A stretch of DNA of 64,000 nucleotides. Source: a bacterium (GTDB taxonomy: Bacteria > Myxococcota_A > UBA9160 > SZUA-336). The translations under genes were made by a program, and so were the position numbers. Positions 21,845-29,709 of this stretch are shown piece by piece. Below the pieces are notes generated by a model. The model was not told the origin of the DNA, ran no database searches, and saw only the letters and a list, made by a program, of their open reading frames with translations. Each line of letters starts with the position of its first letter. Within the stretch, counting starts at the first letter, position 1. Location: contig JAAELY010000118.1 of NCBI GenBank assembly GCA_024226335.1, positions 1 to 64,000 on the forward strand, in the 5' to 3' direction.

Positions 21845-22944
21845 TGCAGCGACAGGCGCGTCTCGAGCAACTCCACCGCAAGGCTCCCTTCTGGGAGCAC
21901 CACGGCGAGTTCAGCGAAGAACTCGATGGCATGGAGAACGTGGTCCGCGAGTTGCGCCGTCGCGCACTCGATATCCGGACCACGCCAGTCAGGCGCGTGC
22001 TTGATCGAATACCACGGGTTGCGAGTGAGCTGGCACGCGAGCTGGGCAAGCAGGTTCGTGTTGAACTCTCCGGTGAGAATGTCGAGGTAGATCGCGCGAT
22101 CCTCGACCATCTGGACGACCCGCTTCTTCACGTGATTCGCAACGCTATCGACCACGGTATCGAGACGCCCGAAGAGCGCCTGTCTGCAGGTAAAGACGCA
22201 ACGGGCACACTGCGCCTGAGCGCATCGCGGGTTGCGGGCCGGATGCATTTGCGCGTCGAGGAAGACGGGCGCGGCATCGATATCGAAGCGCTGAGAAGAC
22301 GAGCCGTCGAACGGGGTCTCCTGCTCGAGATGGTTGCTGAAGATCTGCCGCCAGAGAGAATTCGCGAACTCGTGTTCGAGCCCGGTATTTCGACCCGGGC
22401 CGACGTGACCGACATCTCGGGGCGCGGTGTGGGAATGGATGCGGTCAAGCGCTCGATCGAATCGCTCGGTGGTACGGTTTCCATAGAATCGGCGTCCGAG
22501 ACCGGCACTATCTTCGATTTCGATCTGCCTTCGATGGTCGCGTTGCAACGCGTGCTCGTCTTGAAGCTCGGGGGGGAGCGTGTGGCTCTTCCTGTGGCCC
22601 AGATTGAGGCAGTTCTCGGAGCCGAGGAAAGCCAGATCGAAGCCAACACCGGTGACGCGTTCTTTGAATTCAAAGGCGAACCGCTGCCACTTCTCGATCT
22701 TGCAGAAGAGGTCGGGCTGCCGCGCACGGCATCGGCCAGCAACGCGAATGTTCTCGTGGTAGAGGTCCGCGGATTTCGACTCGGTCTGCTCGTGGATCGC
22801 GCGGTTGGAGACATGGAGGTCTTCGTCCGTGAAACACCTCGTCCCTTGTCCACTTTGGCCGCGCTAGCGGGAGTGGCAGTTCTTCCCGACGGGGCACCGG
22901 TCTTTGTGTTGGAGATCGGTGTACTCGTGGAGCGCTTCCTATGA
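21811..22944 (+). CDS. cheA: Histidine kinase CheA, C-terminal part (P3-P4-P5)
   Basis: Continuation of cheA in the -1 frame; the GTG at 21811 marks the first possible start but the domain frame is open back through the A run. It contains the P3 dimerisation helices (VDRFLAAVGELMQRQ), the P4 ATPase with N box HVIRNAIDHGIETPEER, the G1 box DGRGID and G2 box GRGVGMDAVKRSIESLGG, and a P5 CheW-like domain that binds receptor and CheW. Without the P1 part it could bind ATP but not phosphorylate itself in cis. The end overlaps cheC by four bases. Confidence 0.88.
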   Translation: MDRFLAAVGELMQRQARLEQLHRKAPFWEHHGEFSEELDGMENVVRELRRRALDIRTTPVRRVLDRIPRVASELARELGKQVRVELSGENVEVDRAILDHLDDPLLHVIRNAIDHGIETPEERLSAGKDATGTLRLSASRVAGRMHLRVEEDGRGIDIEALRRRAVERGLLLEMVAEDLPPERIRELVFEPGISTRADVTDISGRGVGMDAVKRSIESLGGTVSIESASETGTIFDFDLPSMVALQRVLVLKLGGERVALPVAQIEAVLGAEESQIEANTGDAFFEFKGEPLPLLDLAEEVGLPRTASASNANVLVVEVRGFRLGLLVDRAVGDMEVFVRETPRPLSTLAALAGVAVLPDGAPVFVLEIGVLVERFL

Positions 22945-23480
22945 ACTACGACGAAGATCATCTCGCTGAACTCGCGAATATCAGCGCAGGTCACGTCGCG
23001 ACGGTCCTCGCTCGCCTGCTGGACAAGACCCTGCTCATGGATCCACCTCAGGTTCGCCTGATTCCGCCCGATTCGGGACCGCTCGATTCCATGTCGGACG
23101 AAGAGCGGGCAGCGGTCGTCTATGCGGACCTCGTGGGGGTGTACCCGGGACAGGCTGCGCTGGTTCTTCCGGAGCACGCGATTGTGGCGATCGTAGAGCG
23201 ACTCGTAGGAAAGACTCTCGAAGACGAGGAGCTCGACGACCGGGCTCGTTCCGCGCTCTGCGAGATGGGGAACATCGCTATTTCGGCTGCTGCCAACGCT
23301 CTTGGCGAGATCGAAGGAGGCATCGTTATTCCCTCGCTCCCGCGCCTGGAGCTCGTGGCTGAAACGGTACCGGCCTTGACCGGCCGACCTGGAACCGAAG
23401 CCAGCTACGTCGCCGAGGTAGAGCTTTTCGAACCCCAGGGCGAGATGCGCCTGCTGTTCCTCTGGATTCCGTCTGACTGA
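22941..23480 (+). CDS. cheC: CheY-P phosphatase CheC
   Basis: 179 residues, ATG start overlapping the cheA stop (ATGA). The CheC/CheX/FliY phosphatase fold is marked by two copies of a helix with conserved Glu and Asn separated by three residues: HLAELANISAGHVA (Glu10, Asn13) near the start and LCEMGNIAISAAANALGE in the middle. Two copies are typical of CheC, whereas CheX keeps one. It should dephosphorylate CheY-P. CheD, its usual partner, and the methylation enzymes CheR and CheB are absent from the window. Confidence 0.88.
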   Translation: MNYDEDHLAELANISAGHVATVLARLLDKTLLMDPPQVRLIPPDSGPLDSMSDEERAAVVYADLVGVYPGQAALVLPEHAIVAIVERLVGKTLEDEELDDRARSALCEMGNIAISAAANALGEIEGGIVIPSLPRLELVAETVPALTGRPGTEASYVAEVELFEPQGEMRLLFLWIPSD

Positions 23481-23551: not shown

Positions 23552-24301
23552 ATGGACCGAGATCACCTGACCCGTCTTCTGGAGCGCTTCGAGCGGCGCG
23601 AGCTTTCTCGCGAGGACGTTCTGGAAGAACTTGCGCGGCTTCCGTTCCGGGCTCTGGGTGACGCGCGTGTCGATACGCATCGCGCCCTGCGCCAGGGTAC
23701 CCCTGAGGTTGTCTTCGGACTGGGCAAGACGGTGGACCAGATCGTACGCATCGTCGAGACGCTGCGGGACGCGGATCAGAATGCCCTGGTCACGCGCGTC
23801 GAGTCCGATGTCGCGCGCGCCGTAGGCGCGCGGATTCCCGAGATCGAGTTCCATCCCGAAGCCCGGATGCTCGCTCTACGCGTCGGGGAACGGCGCATCG
23901 CCGGACGCGGCCCCATCGCGGTCGTGACTGGCGGAACCTCGGACCTTCCGGTGGCCGAGGAAGCCGCCCTGGTTGCGGAGTTTCTGGGCAACAAGGTCGA
24001 GCGCTTGTACGACGTGGGAGTGGCCGGTCTGCACCGACTACTCGCTTCGATCGACGTCCTGCGGTCGGCGAATGTAGTGATCGCGATCGCCGGGATGGAG
24101 GGTGCACTGCCTTCGGTGATCGGAGGCCTGGTGGAGCGGCCCGTGGTCGCCGTTCCCACGAGCATCGGCTACGGTGCATCTTTTGGCGGTATTGCCGCAT
24201 TGCTCGGCATGATCAACTCCTGTGCCTCGAACGTGACGGTGGTGAATATTGACAACGGCTTCGGGGCGGCGAATGTCGCGTCGCTCATCAATCGCTCGTA
24301 A
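23552..24301 (+). CDS. larB: Nickel-pincer cofactor biosynthesis protein LarB
   Basis: Carboxylates and hydrolyses nicotinic acid adenine dinucleotide, the first step of nickel-pincer nucleotide synthesis. The 249-residue protein has the LarB N-terminal helices with FRALGDARVDTHRALRQG and a PurE-like C-terminal domain: VVTGGTSDLPVAEEA, DVGVAGLHRLL, IAIAGMEGALPSVIGGL and PTSIGYGASFGG. It is 71 bases downstream of cheC. Its end overlaps larC by 29 bases. The cofactor serves lactate racemase and related LarA-like epimerases; none is encoded here. Confidence 0.94.
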   Translation: MDRDHLTRLLERFERRELSREDVLEELARLPFRALGDARVDTHRALRQGTPEVVFGLGKTVDQIVRIVETLRDADQNALVTRVESDVARAVGARIPEIEFHPEARMLALRVGERRIAGRGPIAVVTGGTSDLPVAEEAALVAEFLGNKVERLYDVGVAGLHRLLASIDVLRSANVVIAIAGMEGALPSVIGGLVERPVVAVPTSIGYGASFGGIAALLGMINSCASNVTVVNIDNGFGAANVASLINRS

Positions 24302-25493
24302 GCGAAAGGCAGCCGAGGGGCGCCTTCTGCATTTTGATTGCTATTCCGGGGCTGCCGGCAATATGCTCCTGGGCGCCTTGCTCGACGTGGGGGCGTCTGC
24401 GCGTCAGGTGCGAGAACAAATCAGCTGCCTGGGTGTTGACGGCATTCGCATGCGTGTCTCGAACGTGAAACGGGGAGCGATTGCCGCCCGCTATGTGCAG
24501 TTCCGAGGACCGGCCCGAGATTCCAAGCAACGCCGCTGGGCCGAGATCCGCAAGCTGATCAGCAAGGCTCCGCTGCGCAATCGCGTACGCGAACGAAGTC
24601 TTGAAGTATTCGAAGCTCTGGCCGAGTCCGAGGCTCGAGTACACGGAGTTGCGCCGGAGCGCGTTCATTTCCACGAAGTCGGTGCAATCGATGCAATCGG
24701 CGACATCGTCGGTGTATGCGCAGCCTTGGATGCGCTCGAGGTGTCGCACGTGAGCAGTTCGCCCCTGGCCTTGGGACACGGCCAGGTGAAGACCGAACAC
24801 GGTGTGCTGCCCCTGCCAGCTCCCGCGAGCTTGCTCCTGCTGGCCGGGATCCCCACGTACCCGGTCGATGTCCCCTGGGAAACCGTAACGCCAACGGGCG
24901 CTGCGTTGTTGCGAGTTCTGGTGGACGAGTGGGGACCGATGCCGGCGATCACCCCGCTCGACCAGGGATTTGGCGCGGGCCAGGATCGCTCCGGCCCCAT
25001 GCCCAACACTCTGCGCGTTGCACTGGGTGTGTCCAACGATGCGCTCGCTCGCGACACGGTGAGTGTAATCGAGACTCACCTGGACGATACACATCCGGAA
25101 CACCTGCCGTTTCTTCTGGAACGGTTGATGGAAGACGGTGCGCTCGACGCTTCATTGAGTTCCCTGACCATGAAGAAGGGGCGTATGGGGCAGTTGTTGC
25201 GCGTGCTGGCCCGACCCTCGGATAGGGATCGACTCGCACGTCGCGTCTTGTTGGAGTCCAGCGCATTGGGGGTTCGCTTCAGTGAGCTTCCCAGGCTCTT
25301 GCTCAAGCGCGAGAACCTCACGGTGCAGACGGATTACGGTGCGATTCGCGTCAAGATCGCACGCGCTCCCGACGGTGCCACGAGTGCCGCGCCCGAATAC
25401 GAGGCGTGCGCGCGTGCGGCACGCAAACACAGCGTTCCGCTTGGGCGCGTGTATCGCGCTGCTGAACGCCGCGCCGAAGAAGAACTCTCGTGA
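24273..25493 (+). CDS. larC: Nickel-insertion protein LarC
   Basis: CTP-dependent cyclometallase that inserts nickel in the last step of pincer cofactor synthesis. ATG 24273 is chosen over an upstream TTG at 24249 because it follows a G-rich site and adds little unrelated sequence. 406 residues: the N-terminal HFDCYSGAAGNMLLGALLDVG motif, VHFHEVGAIDAIGDIVG with metal-binding His, the ETHLDDTHPEHLPFLLERL region and a C-terminal domain. In some lactobacilli the two halves are joined by programmed frameshifting; here one continuous frame encodes both. It overlaps larB and couples to the esterase gene. Confidence 0.94.
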   Translation: MSRRSSIARKRKAAEGRLLHFDCYSGAAGNMLLGALLDVGASARQVREQISCLGVDGIRMRVSNVKRGAIAARYVQFRGPARDSKQRRWAEIRKLISKAPLRNRVRERSLEVFEALAESEARVHGVAPERVHFHEVGAIDAIGDIVGVCAALDALEVSHVSSSPLALGHGQVKTEHGVLPLPAPASLLLLAGIPTYPVDVPWETVTPTGAALLRVLVDEWGPMPAITPLDQGFGAGQDRSGPMPNTLRVALGVSNDALARDTVSVIETHLDDTHPEHLPFLLERLMEDGALDASLSSLTMKKGRMGQLLRVLARPSDRDRLARRVLLESSALGVRFSELPRLLLKRENLTVQTDYGAIRVKIARAPDGATSAAPEYEACARAARKHSVPLGRVYRAAERRAEEELS

Positions 25494-26251
25494 CGATCGA
25501 ATCCGGTCCTTTCGAACTGGGCGACGTTAGTGGAGACGGACCGGCCGTACTGTGCGTCCACGGACTCACCGGCACTCCCTACGAGGTGCGGCCCATCGCC
25601 GAGGCGCTCGCGCACAACGGCTTTGTCTGCGTTGGACCTCTGCTACCCGGACACGGCACGACCCCCGCAGAGTTGTCGATCGTTTCCCATCAGCAGTGGC
25701 TAGAGGCCGTCGAGCGCGCGTGGGATGCACTCGCCAAGCGACATCCGCGTGTGTACGTGCTGGGTCTCTCACTCGGCGGTCTCCTGAGCCTTGCGCTCGC
25801 GCAGAATCGCCCGGTGGCCGGGGCGGTGATCATGGCCGCGCCCCTGCGACTGGGGCGCGCGGTACGCTACGGCGTCCCCTTGCTCCATCGCTGGTTGCGG
25901 GAGATTCCCAAGACGCCCGGCATCCTCGACCCGCAAGCACGAGCGGTGCACCCGGGTTACGACCGCATGCCGCTGTCTTCGGTCAACCAGTTGATCCATC
26001 TGGCGCGTCGGGTCCGAGGTGATCTGGCACGGATCGACGCCCCTCTGCAGCTCATCTTCAGCCGCTGTGACGAGACCGTAGACCTGCAGAACCTGGATCA
26101 GATCATAAATGGAGTGAAATCACCTCAGATCGAGACTCTCATCCTCGAAGATTCCGGCCATGTTCTTCCGGTCGATCGCGAAAGTGTGAAGGTCGCAGCA
26201 TCGGTTGTGGAATTTCTGACCTCTCAGGAAGCCTCTACGCTTGACGCGTAG
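25490..26251 (+). CDS. Alpha/beta hydrolase, carboxylesterase or monoacylglycerol-lipase type
   Basis: 253 residues, GTG start overlapping the larC stop by four bases. The fold is shown by the oxyanion motif VHGLTGTPYEVRPIAEAL, the nucleophile elbow GLSLGG (Ser94), an acidic residue in SRCDETVD and the catalytic His in EDSGHVLPVD. The short lid and the PLLPGHGTTP stretch resemble Est30-like thermostable carboxylesterases. No signal peptide is seen, so it is probably cytoplasmic. The substrate is not deducible. The link to larBC may be only transcriptional. Confidence 0.87.
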   Translation: MTIESGPFELGDVSGDGPAVLCVHGLTGTPYEVRPIAEALAHNGFVCVGPLLPGHGTTPAELSIVSHQQWLEAVERAWDALAKRHPRVYVLGLSLGGLLSLALAQNRPVAGAVIMAAPLRLGRAVRYGVPLLHRWLREIPKTPGILDPQARAVHPGYDRMPLSSVNQLIHLARRVRGDLARIDAPLQLIFSRCDETVDLQNLDQIINGVKSPQIETLILEDSGHVLPVDRESVKVAASVVEFLTSQEASTLDA

Positions 26252-26317
26252 TCTGGATCTGGGAATCCTAAGGCGCTGCATTACTCCAACCAACACCAGG
26301 GGGCCAGAGAGACTCAA

Positions 26318-26533
26318 ATGGCAGAACTTCCCGCAGCAGCCGTCAAGCGCCTGCTCACCAAGCACGGCAGCGAACTCAGGACATCTTCTTCCGCGGTCGA
26401 CCTGGCTGTTGCCGCGACCGAAAGCTACGTCGCCCGTCTGGCCCAGGAAGCGAGTGCTTCCGCTCAAAAAGAGCGCCGCAAGACCATCATGGATGCCGAC
26501 ATCGAGAAGGCGCGCGAGCAGCTCGGCGGCTAG
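26318..26533 (+). CDS. Bacterial histone-fold DNA-binding protein
   Basis: A 71-residue protein that aligns along its whole length with archaeal histones such as HMfB. Helix 1 is ELPAAAVKRLLTKHG, loop 1 follows with Arg21, helix 2 runs from about residue 24 to 52, loop 2 holds the RKT signature (Arg54-Lys55-Thr56), and helix 3 is DADIEKAREQL. The archaeal counterpart has ELP at the start and RKTIKAEDIE at the end, so the match includes functional positions. It lacks the acidic-rich tail or fused domains found elsewhere. Histones of this size occur in Bdellovibrio, where one is an abundant chromatin protein. ATG is preceded by GAGAG. Confidence 0.88.
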   Translation: MAELPAAAVKRLLTKHGSELRTSSSAVDLAVAATESYVARLAQEASASAQKERRKTIMDADIEKAREQLGG

Positions 26534-26559: not shown

Positions 26560-27927
26560 TCAGGAACGCTTGAGTGCGCGCGCTGCGAGGTACTCGATCA
26601 CGCGGATCCAGCGCACTTCACCATCCCCGTGGAAGTGCAGCAGGCGGACCCCTGCCAGCACACTGGCAAAGCCGGGAAGATTGACGCGCGAAACAACTCG
26701 TCCGACCACGTCGATTTCGCCCAGCGGTTTCGGCAGCGCGATTCGATAGTGTTCGTCGCGACCGAGTTCGATCTCGCGGCGGGTTCGCAGCGTGAGCCCG
26801 CCGCGCGCAACGGATTCCGTCAGGTCATCCCAGTCGAGGTCCCGTTCGTGGGTCCTGACGCGAAAGCGCGCGGGAAAGCGCGAGAATCGCCGTTCGCTGG
26901 AGTTATCGAGCATATTGTCGAAGGTCGCGATGACGCCGTCCCATTCGAATGGACCGGGCAGGTAGGCGGAGGCGCCTGCGGCCTGCGCGGCCACCTGGCT
27001 GGCACTACGGGAGCGTTCTTCGAGCAGGACGATCGGCAGTTGCTCGATTCCCGCAATATTGCGCATGCGCACCGTCAGCTCGAAACCATCGATCCGGGGC
27101 ATCTGCGCCTGGATCAACACGAGTTCGTAACTGTGTCGCCGGAACGCATCCAGAGCCCTGGTCGGATCCCTGGGTATGTCGGGTCGGATCTCTCTCGAGG
27201 GTAGTTCCGCCACGAGTTGATCCCGCAGCAGCCCCTGTTGTGCCACGACGAGCACGCGGTGGTCATCGGCCTTCTTGGCTGCCACGTCCAGGCTCAGAGC
27301 AGGCCTTTCCGAAGCACGGGCCAACTGTTCGGTTCGCTGCTTCTTTGCAGCGTCGCGCGCAAGCCGTCCCATTTCGGTCGTCAGGGCGATTTCGAGTTCA
27401 CTTGCTCTCGCATCTTCGTACGGCCTGAAGCGACGGTCTTTTGGTGAAGCGAGCGACACATCCGCCAACGGACCGACGCTGGGCAACTGGATCTCTACCG
27501 GTGAGCGAACCTCAACGCTCTTGCAGCTAAAGTCGTTCAAGGGAATCTGCAGCCGCGTACCGCGGTGCGCGCTACGGGCGTCGATGCGCCGGGCCCGAAA
27601 TCGCTCGCGCGCAGCGGTGAGTTCCCCTTGTGCCACAGACCAGGCGCGGCGCAGTCGCGACTCGATGTCCGCAGCTGAATCACAGGTGCCTACTTCGATC
27701 GCTGGAAGGTCGAATAGCGGGCGCGGCTGAAAGAACTTCAGGCTCTTGTGATCGACCGTGAAGAAACGTGCACGCTCGATGGGAAATGGTGGGCCGAGGG
27801 TCTCAAAGGGCGTCGTAGAGAGCACGAGTTCGCCCACGGCCAGGTTGGCCCCGCTTTCGATCTTCATTTCGATCCCGAAAGATCGAAGTCGATCGATCAG
27901 GAATTGCTTCTGATGGTCCGCCGACAC
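26560..27927 (-). CDS. PilZ-domain protein with an inactive receiver domain
   Basis: 455 residues in three parts. The N-terminal about 215 residues are unrecognised, with a long charged helix around 180-220. Residues about 223-335 follow a response-regulator fold, but the phospho-acceptor Asp is replaced by Gln273 (LIQAQMPRIDG), the acidic pair reads AQQ, and the conserved Lys of KPF is missing (LPGPF). Residues about 345-440 form a PilZ domain with RRFSR and SVARGG, the c-di-GMP-binding motifs. It likely responds to c-di-GMP rather than phosphorylation. It lies downstream of groEL behind a strong hairpin. Confidence 0.78.
   Translation of the reverse strand: MSADHQKQFLIDRLRSFGIEMKIESGANLAVGELVLSTTPFETLGPPFPIERARFFTVDHKSLKFFQPRPLFDLPAIEVGTCDSAADIESRLRRAWSVAQGELTAARERFRARRIDARSAHRGTRLQIPLNDFSCKSVEVRSPVEIQLPSVGPLADVSLASPKDRRFRPYEDARASELEIALTTEMGRLARDAAKKQRTEQLARASERPALSLDVAAKKADDHRVLVVAQQGLLRDQLVAELPSREIRPDIPRDPTRALDAFRRHSYELVLIQAQMPRIDGFELTVRMRNIAGIEQLPIVLLEERSRSASQVAAQAAGASAYLPGPFEWDGVIATFDNMLDNSSERRFSRFPARFRVRTHERDLDWDDLTESVARGGLTLRTRREIELGRDEHYRIALPKPLGEIDVVGRVVSRVNLPGFASVLAGVRLLHFHGDGEVRWIRVIEYLAARALKRS

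Positions 27928-28074: not shown

Positions 28075-29709
<1,635 letters not shown>

Follow-up and report, generated by a model that had tools for sequence, protein, structure and literature searches.

The window, i.e. the whole stretch of 64,000 nucleotides that was analysed, contains a gene for a small histone on its forward strand (26318..26533, +). The open reading frame is intact, runs from an ATG start to a TAG stop and encodes 71 aa. Upstream on the same strand lie two conserved neighbours, larB (23552..24301, +; PF00731) and larC, encoding a nickel insertion protein (24249..25493, +; PF01969, E = 1e-124), followed by a gene for an alpha/beta hydrolase (25490..26251, +; PF12146/PF00561/PF12697). 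An earlier note on this DNA had placed the histone downstream of larBC; larC is indeed upstream, but the hydrolase gene is the direct neighbour. A che cluster, ending with a gene for a CheC/CheX-like protein (22941-23480, +), runs directly into larBC. Downstream of the histone follow a convergent gene for a response-regulator and PilZ protein (26560..27927, -; PF00072, PF07238), which is conserved in many loci, and groEL, recognised from its translation (28075..29685, -). The sole Rfam match in the window was a tRNA gene (574-646, -).

The product of 26318-26533 is certainly a true stand-alone histone, as the earlier note had called it. In the histone-fold profile search which that note had proposed, the protein matched PF00808 with E = 5.3e-13 and 49.5 bits (curated cut-off 21.4); the match to PF00125 had E = 6.3e-10. 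With the NCBIfam profile archaea_histone it scored 34.6 bits, below the cut-off of 50 bits (HMfB, 98; HBb, 31.7). It was the sole PF00808 match in the window's genome, i.e. a single-copy gene, and it is internal to a contig of 151 kb. Since the RKT motif and the RD clamp occur with zero exceptions in 41 orthologous sequences, a chance reading frame is ruled out. Residues common to the aligned family are M1, P5, A7, K10, R11, R21, A26, E35, A42, A45, A49, R54, K55, T56, M58, D61, and I62. Family members are 69-74 aa long with a median pI of 9.3; the net charge of the window member is low (+0.6).

Predicted fold and contact residues

An AlphaFold2 model based on 41 sequences predicted a histone fold (pLDDT 93) with alpha1 at residues 6-16, alpha2 at 24-51, and alpha3 at 59-69. 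Foldseek returned HPhA, NF-YB, and H3 for this model at a probability of 1.00 and TM 0.79-0.91, with E-values near 2e-3 and none below 0.001, which we put down to the short chain. The loop-1 Ser and the Arg of RKT are 31 residues apart in HMfA, HMfB, HPhA, and the window protein (S23 and R54), against 27 in HBb, HLp, and HTkC; the sequences of the latter three came from PDB alignments retrieved with a bait sequence, completed by the last residue of HLp from its paper and by four supplied residues at the end of HTkC, which leaves the spacing unaffected. The R21-R54 distance is constant in 42 family sequences, and 9-13 residues follow the Asp of the RD clamp. Together with the spacing of 31 rather than 27, this indicates an alpha2 that is one turn longer and a full alpha3. 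The helices thus have nucleosomal dimensions (about 28 residues for alpha2 and about 10 for alpha3). They do not have those of the alpha3 histones (HBb, FtF, and ZZ), which a 2024 survey defines by an alpha3 of 3-4 residues and an alpha2 shorter by 4-5 (PMC11390915). The full-length architecture is well supported. In the window family, Ala or Thr stands at several positions that belong to the hydrophobic core in HMfB (L28, L32).

Residues relevant for DNA binding and for dimer-dimer contact were taken from PMC6136690. The DNA-contact residues R10, R19, K53, and T54 as well as the RD clamp R52-D59 (HMfB numbering) were invariant in 42 of 42 sequences. Loop 1 is one residue longer than in HMfB, and R21 is the counterpart of the minor-groove residue R19, again in all 42. 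The earlier note had set Leu20-Arg21 where HMfB has Arg-Val and had suspected an altered DNA contact of loop 1; the former was an alignment slip, and the loop-1 Arg is conserved, not changed. The archaeal layout described there was borne out, with full alpha2 and alpha3, the ELP start, RKT, and the minor-groove Arg all present.

Among the dimer-dimer residues L46, H49, D59, and L62, only D59 is kept. The position of L46 holds Ser in 29 of 42 sequences, that of H49 is never His and in most cases Ala or Lys, and that of L62 is mostly Lys or Arg. As the dimer-dimer residues of HMfB are not kept, canonical hypernucleosomes are probably not built. G16 of the stacking loop (HMfB numbering) is kept in 37 of 42. 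In the window protein, K51 could pair with D61; position 51 is not conserved across the family, so such a pair would be no family-wide feature.

Distribution, chromosomal site, and promoter

Matches to PF00808 were found in 33 of 60 relatives. Across the phylum, 50 of 379 genomes had a match, each a single one, and all 50 belong to the window's class; these counts are lower bounds, as genome G009, which had counted as lacking the histone, carries it at the end of a contig (L105). The wider reach suggested by the earlier note thus holds for most of this bacterial class, and the nucleoid packing suggested with it is plausible. Relatives of the window histone were looked for in viral contigs, phages, and plasmids and none were found, which leaves a mobile-element origin unsupported. 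A scan of genome contigs with near-exact patterns gave one named relative among the matches listed, a MAG labelled 'Deltaproteobacteria bacterium' (68% identity). Occurrence of the family beyond the phylum is possible. Genes for HU/IHF were also present, with two in the window's genome and matches in 59 of the 60 relatives.

The conserved order at the site is che-larB-larC-(hydrolase)-histone, with groESL oriented towards it. Che followed by lar is seen again across the window's class, part of which also has the hydrolase gene. The histone gene follows larC or the hydrolase gene in 20 of 21 loci, which come from families f1, f3, f5-f8, and f10 and from the named MAG; synteny, which the earlier note had proposed to look for in neighbouring genomes, is therefore conserved. 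Downstream, 18 of the 21 loci have groEL on the opposite strand, frequently separated from the histone gene by a PilZ protein gene, and lexA comes next in many. In one locus (L047), the stop codon of the histone gene is immediately followed by a tandem repeat of about 20 bp (GGCCCCGATCCGTGGGCTAG).

Most histone genes of the family likely have their own sigma-70-like promoter, as suggested by motifs upstream of them. The pattern TTGAC[AG]-N16-18-(TANNNT or AATCCTA) occurred in 25 of 42 upstream regions (0.1 on average after shuffling), and TTGACA by itself in 23 of 42 (0.6 after shuffling). The candidate promoter TTGACG-N17-AATCCTA (26241..26270, +) is the single match in the window and overlaps the 3′ end of the hydrolase gene; it is the weaker part of the promoter evidence, because the AATCCTA variant was added after inspection of family f1. 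Codon usage, taken as a proxy for abundance, gave no sign of high histone expression.

Relation to known histones and predicted role

An HMM of the family scored HPhA, HmvA, and HMfA at 38-41 bits, HMfB at 27.7, HBb at 23, HTkC at 15, and HLp at 7.5. In a small ML tree, which has a midpoint root and whose seventy residues cannot settle the origin, the alpha3 types formed one group (UFB 99); the window family was placed apart from them, together with the nucleosomal references and closest to HmvA/MJ1647 (UFB 98).

The family shares full alpha2 and alpha3, the ELP start, RKT, the RD clamp, and the pair of minor-groove Arg and Thr (RT pair) with HMfA, HMfB, and HPhA. It differs from them in the additional loop-1 residue, in L46, H49, and L62, which are not kept, in Met for K56, in its bacterial host, and in a score below the archaea_histone cut-off. 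MJ1647/HmvA (PDB 8BDK), a bridging histone of Methanococcales and the closest reference in the tree, has the LPxAxVKR start in common with the window family; it carries a 27-residue C-terminal tetramerisation module and no counterpart of R19 (PMC10516927), whereas the window family keeps the Arg and lacks the module. The face-to-face histones HLp and HTkC likewise have the histone fold, and loop 1 of HTkC is similar (EMRVS), but both are alpha3-truncated with the shorter spacing, and a torus tetramer is formed via R49/N53/R55 of HLp.

The 2024 survey regards nucleosomal histones as exclusive to archaea (PMC11390915). According to Hocher 2023 (PMC10627809), bacterial singlets are diagnosed by their shorter alpha2, and the minor-groove Arg is not conserved in bacterial histones; the alpha2 analysis of that study dropped bacterial proteins longer than 65 aa, so that the present family, given its length, would fall outside it. 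A histone of archaeal/eukaryotic length in a bacterial class is a form that these surveys report only outside bacteria. A class-wide, full-length bacterial family breaks the rule that stand-alone histones of bacteria are alpha3-truncated and that nucleosomal histones of prokaryotes are confined to archaea.

We consider it fairly probable that this full-length single-domain histone, fixed at one site across most of the class, is a DNA-bending dimer beside HU/IHF and does not form canonical hypernucleosomes. The protein would form the usual handshake homodimer and use alpha1 together with the paired loops L1 and L2 to bind DNA without sequence specificity, R21 reaching into the minor groove. As a nucleoid-associated protein next to HU/IHF, each dimer would bend about 30 bp. 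With the DNA-binding residues kept and two HU/IHF genes present, an additional DNA-bending dimer is the likeliest job. In one family (f4, see below), the long histone would have been lost, with an HBb-like histone present instead.

Tetramers of the window histone are possible by its sequence, as G16 is mostly kept, D59 is kept, and K51-D61 is a potential pair. The protein might therefore wrap DNA as a tetramer or hypernucleosome through a changed interface, for example with H49-D59 replaced by a salt bridge between K51 and D61, or as a closed tetramer. Full-length alpha2 and alpha3, the builders of the four-helix bundle, speak for this, and some basic singlets are predicted to form closed tetramers in a 2026 survey (PMC13260811). 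We nevertheless regard wrapping as unlikely, as most members have Ser, Ala/Lys, and Lys/Arg where HMfB has L46, H49, and L62 and the variable position 51 makes the substitute salt bridge no property of the family.

That the histone regulates locally or in a specialised way, for example at the neighbouring operon or at a few sites, and is not a general chromatin protein, is rather improbable. Its fixed place adjoining the che and lar genes, the presence of HU/IHF, a codon usage without sign of abundance, and the fact that family f4 lives without the long histone would suit such a role; however, the residues for general DNA contact are all kept, the gene's own promoter is conserved, and f4 has another histone instead.

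The earlier note had pointed to the Bdellovibrio histone, which is the wrong model, since that type has a short helix 2 and a truncated helix 3. HBb/Bd0055, likewise bacterial and stand-alone, resembles the window family in its loop-2 motif RKT[IV]M, the RD clamp, and Met at the position of K56 of HMfB, and the tetramer residues of HMfB are absent from both. The shared RKT[IV]M is possibly due to convergence or a long-branch effect. HBb itself has a rudimentary alpha3 and no minor-groove Arg, and its alpha2 is one turn shorter, i.e. helix 2 of the window histone is longer by 4 residues and its helix 3 is full length. Moreover, HBb reached 23 bits with the family HMM against 38-41 for HPhA, HmvA, and HMfA, and the alpha3 types separate in the tree (UFB 99). 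That the window protein is itself an alpha3-truncated dimer histone of this kind is very improbable. An archaeal contig or gene misassembled into the genome, a draft in 556 contigs, can be rejected with near certainty, as bacterial che, lar, groESL, and lexA genes surround the histone on its 151-kb contig, the same gene order is shared by other families, and 49 further genomes gave matches.

Histone types within the class

Family f4 keeps larB-larC-hydrolase and lacks the long histone. In five f4 genomes the hydrolase gene is followed, after a gap of 10-68 bp, by the convergent PilZ gene with no histone. In a further sequence of this family (L107 from 6520, genome G020), 3 kb lie between the hydrolase and PilZ genes, opening with a short tandem repeat (GGTCGCTAGAGCGTAGCGATC...). 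In a gene tree used as species tree, f4 genomes grouped with the histone-bearing families, G021 standing apart from the rest of them; only the f4 grouping is used, the GroEL outgroup being muddled by paralogues and partly inside the class. This grouping favours histone loss over late gain.

A profile of alpha3 histones gave strong matches in f4 genomes, with E down to 1e-22. Fifteen of these HBb-like histones were read out (L152-L161, L167-L171); all are stand-alone, 62-63 aa long, and encoded elsewhere in the genome. The best PDB match of one was HBb (1e-14), and an AlphaFold2 control for an f4 histone gave a poor model (pLDDT 65), which was left out of the comparison. The TTGAC box was present in none of the 15 regions upstream of these genes. 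Strong alpha3 matches (E at most 6e-20) occurred in 28 genomes of the class, 27 from f4 and one from f11, and by hand count these showed zero overlap with the 50 genomes carrying the long histone in the 379-genome sample; as related genomes are not independent, the non-overlap may represent a single event.

We infer that the HBb-like histone of f4 functionally replaces the long one. More broadly, the long histone may be a separately inherited bacterial lineage of the nucleosomal kind, exchanged within the class for the HBb type, so that two architectures would do the same chromatin job; this we hold to be about an even matter, leaning slightly towards doubt. The family provides a natural protein in which the nucleosomal fold and DNA contacts are kept and the known tetramer residues are absent, and f4 an apparent natural swap of two histone types between related bacteria. 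Both are relevant to how histones passed from one domain to another and to which of their parts wrapping DNA, as opposed to bending it, requires.

The window's genome also has a separate gene, G000:C189 (L172:927-1475, +), for a protein of 182 aa in which a ZZ-like zinc finger is fused to a C-terminal alpha3 histone domain. This ZZ-type category is already described, and similar genes occur in several other families of the class. Finally, two alpha3-type matches adjoin in one open frame in G051:C86:2016-2399 (282 aa) and in G156:C291:1956-2321 (254 aa), and these frames perhaps encode doublet histones.
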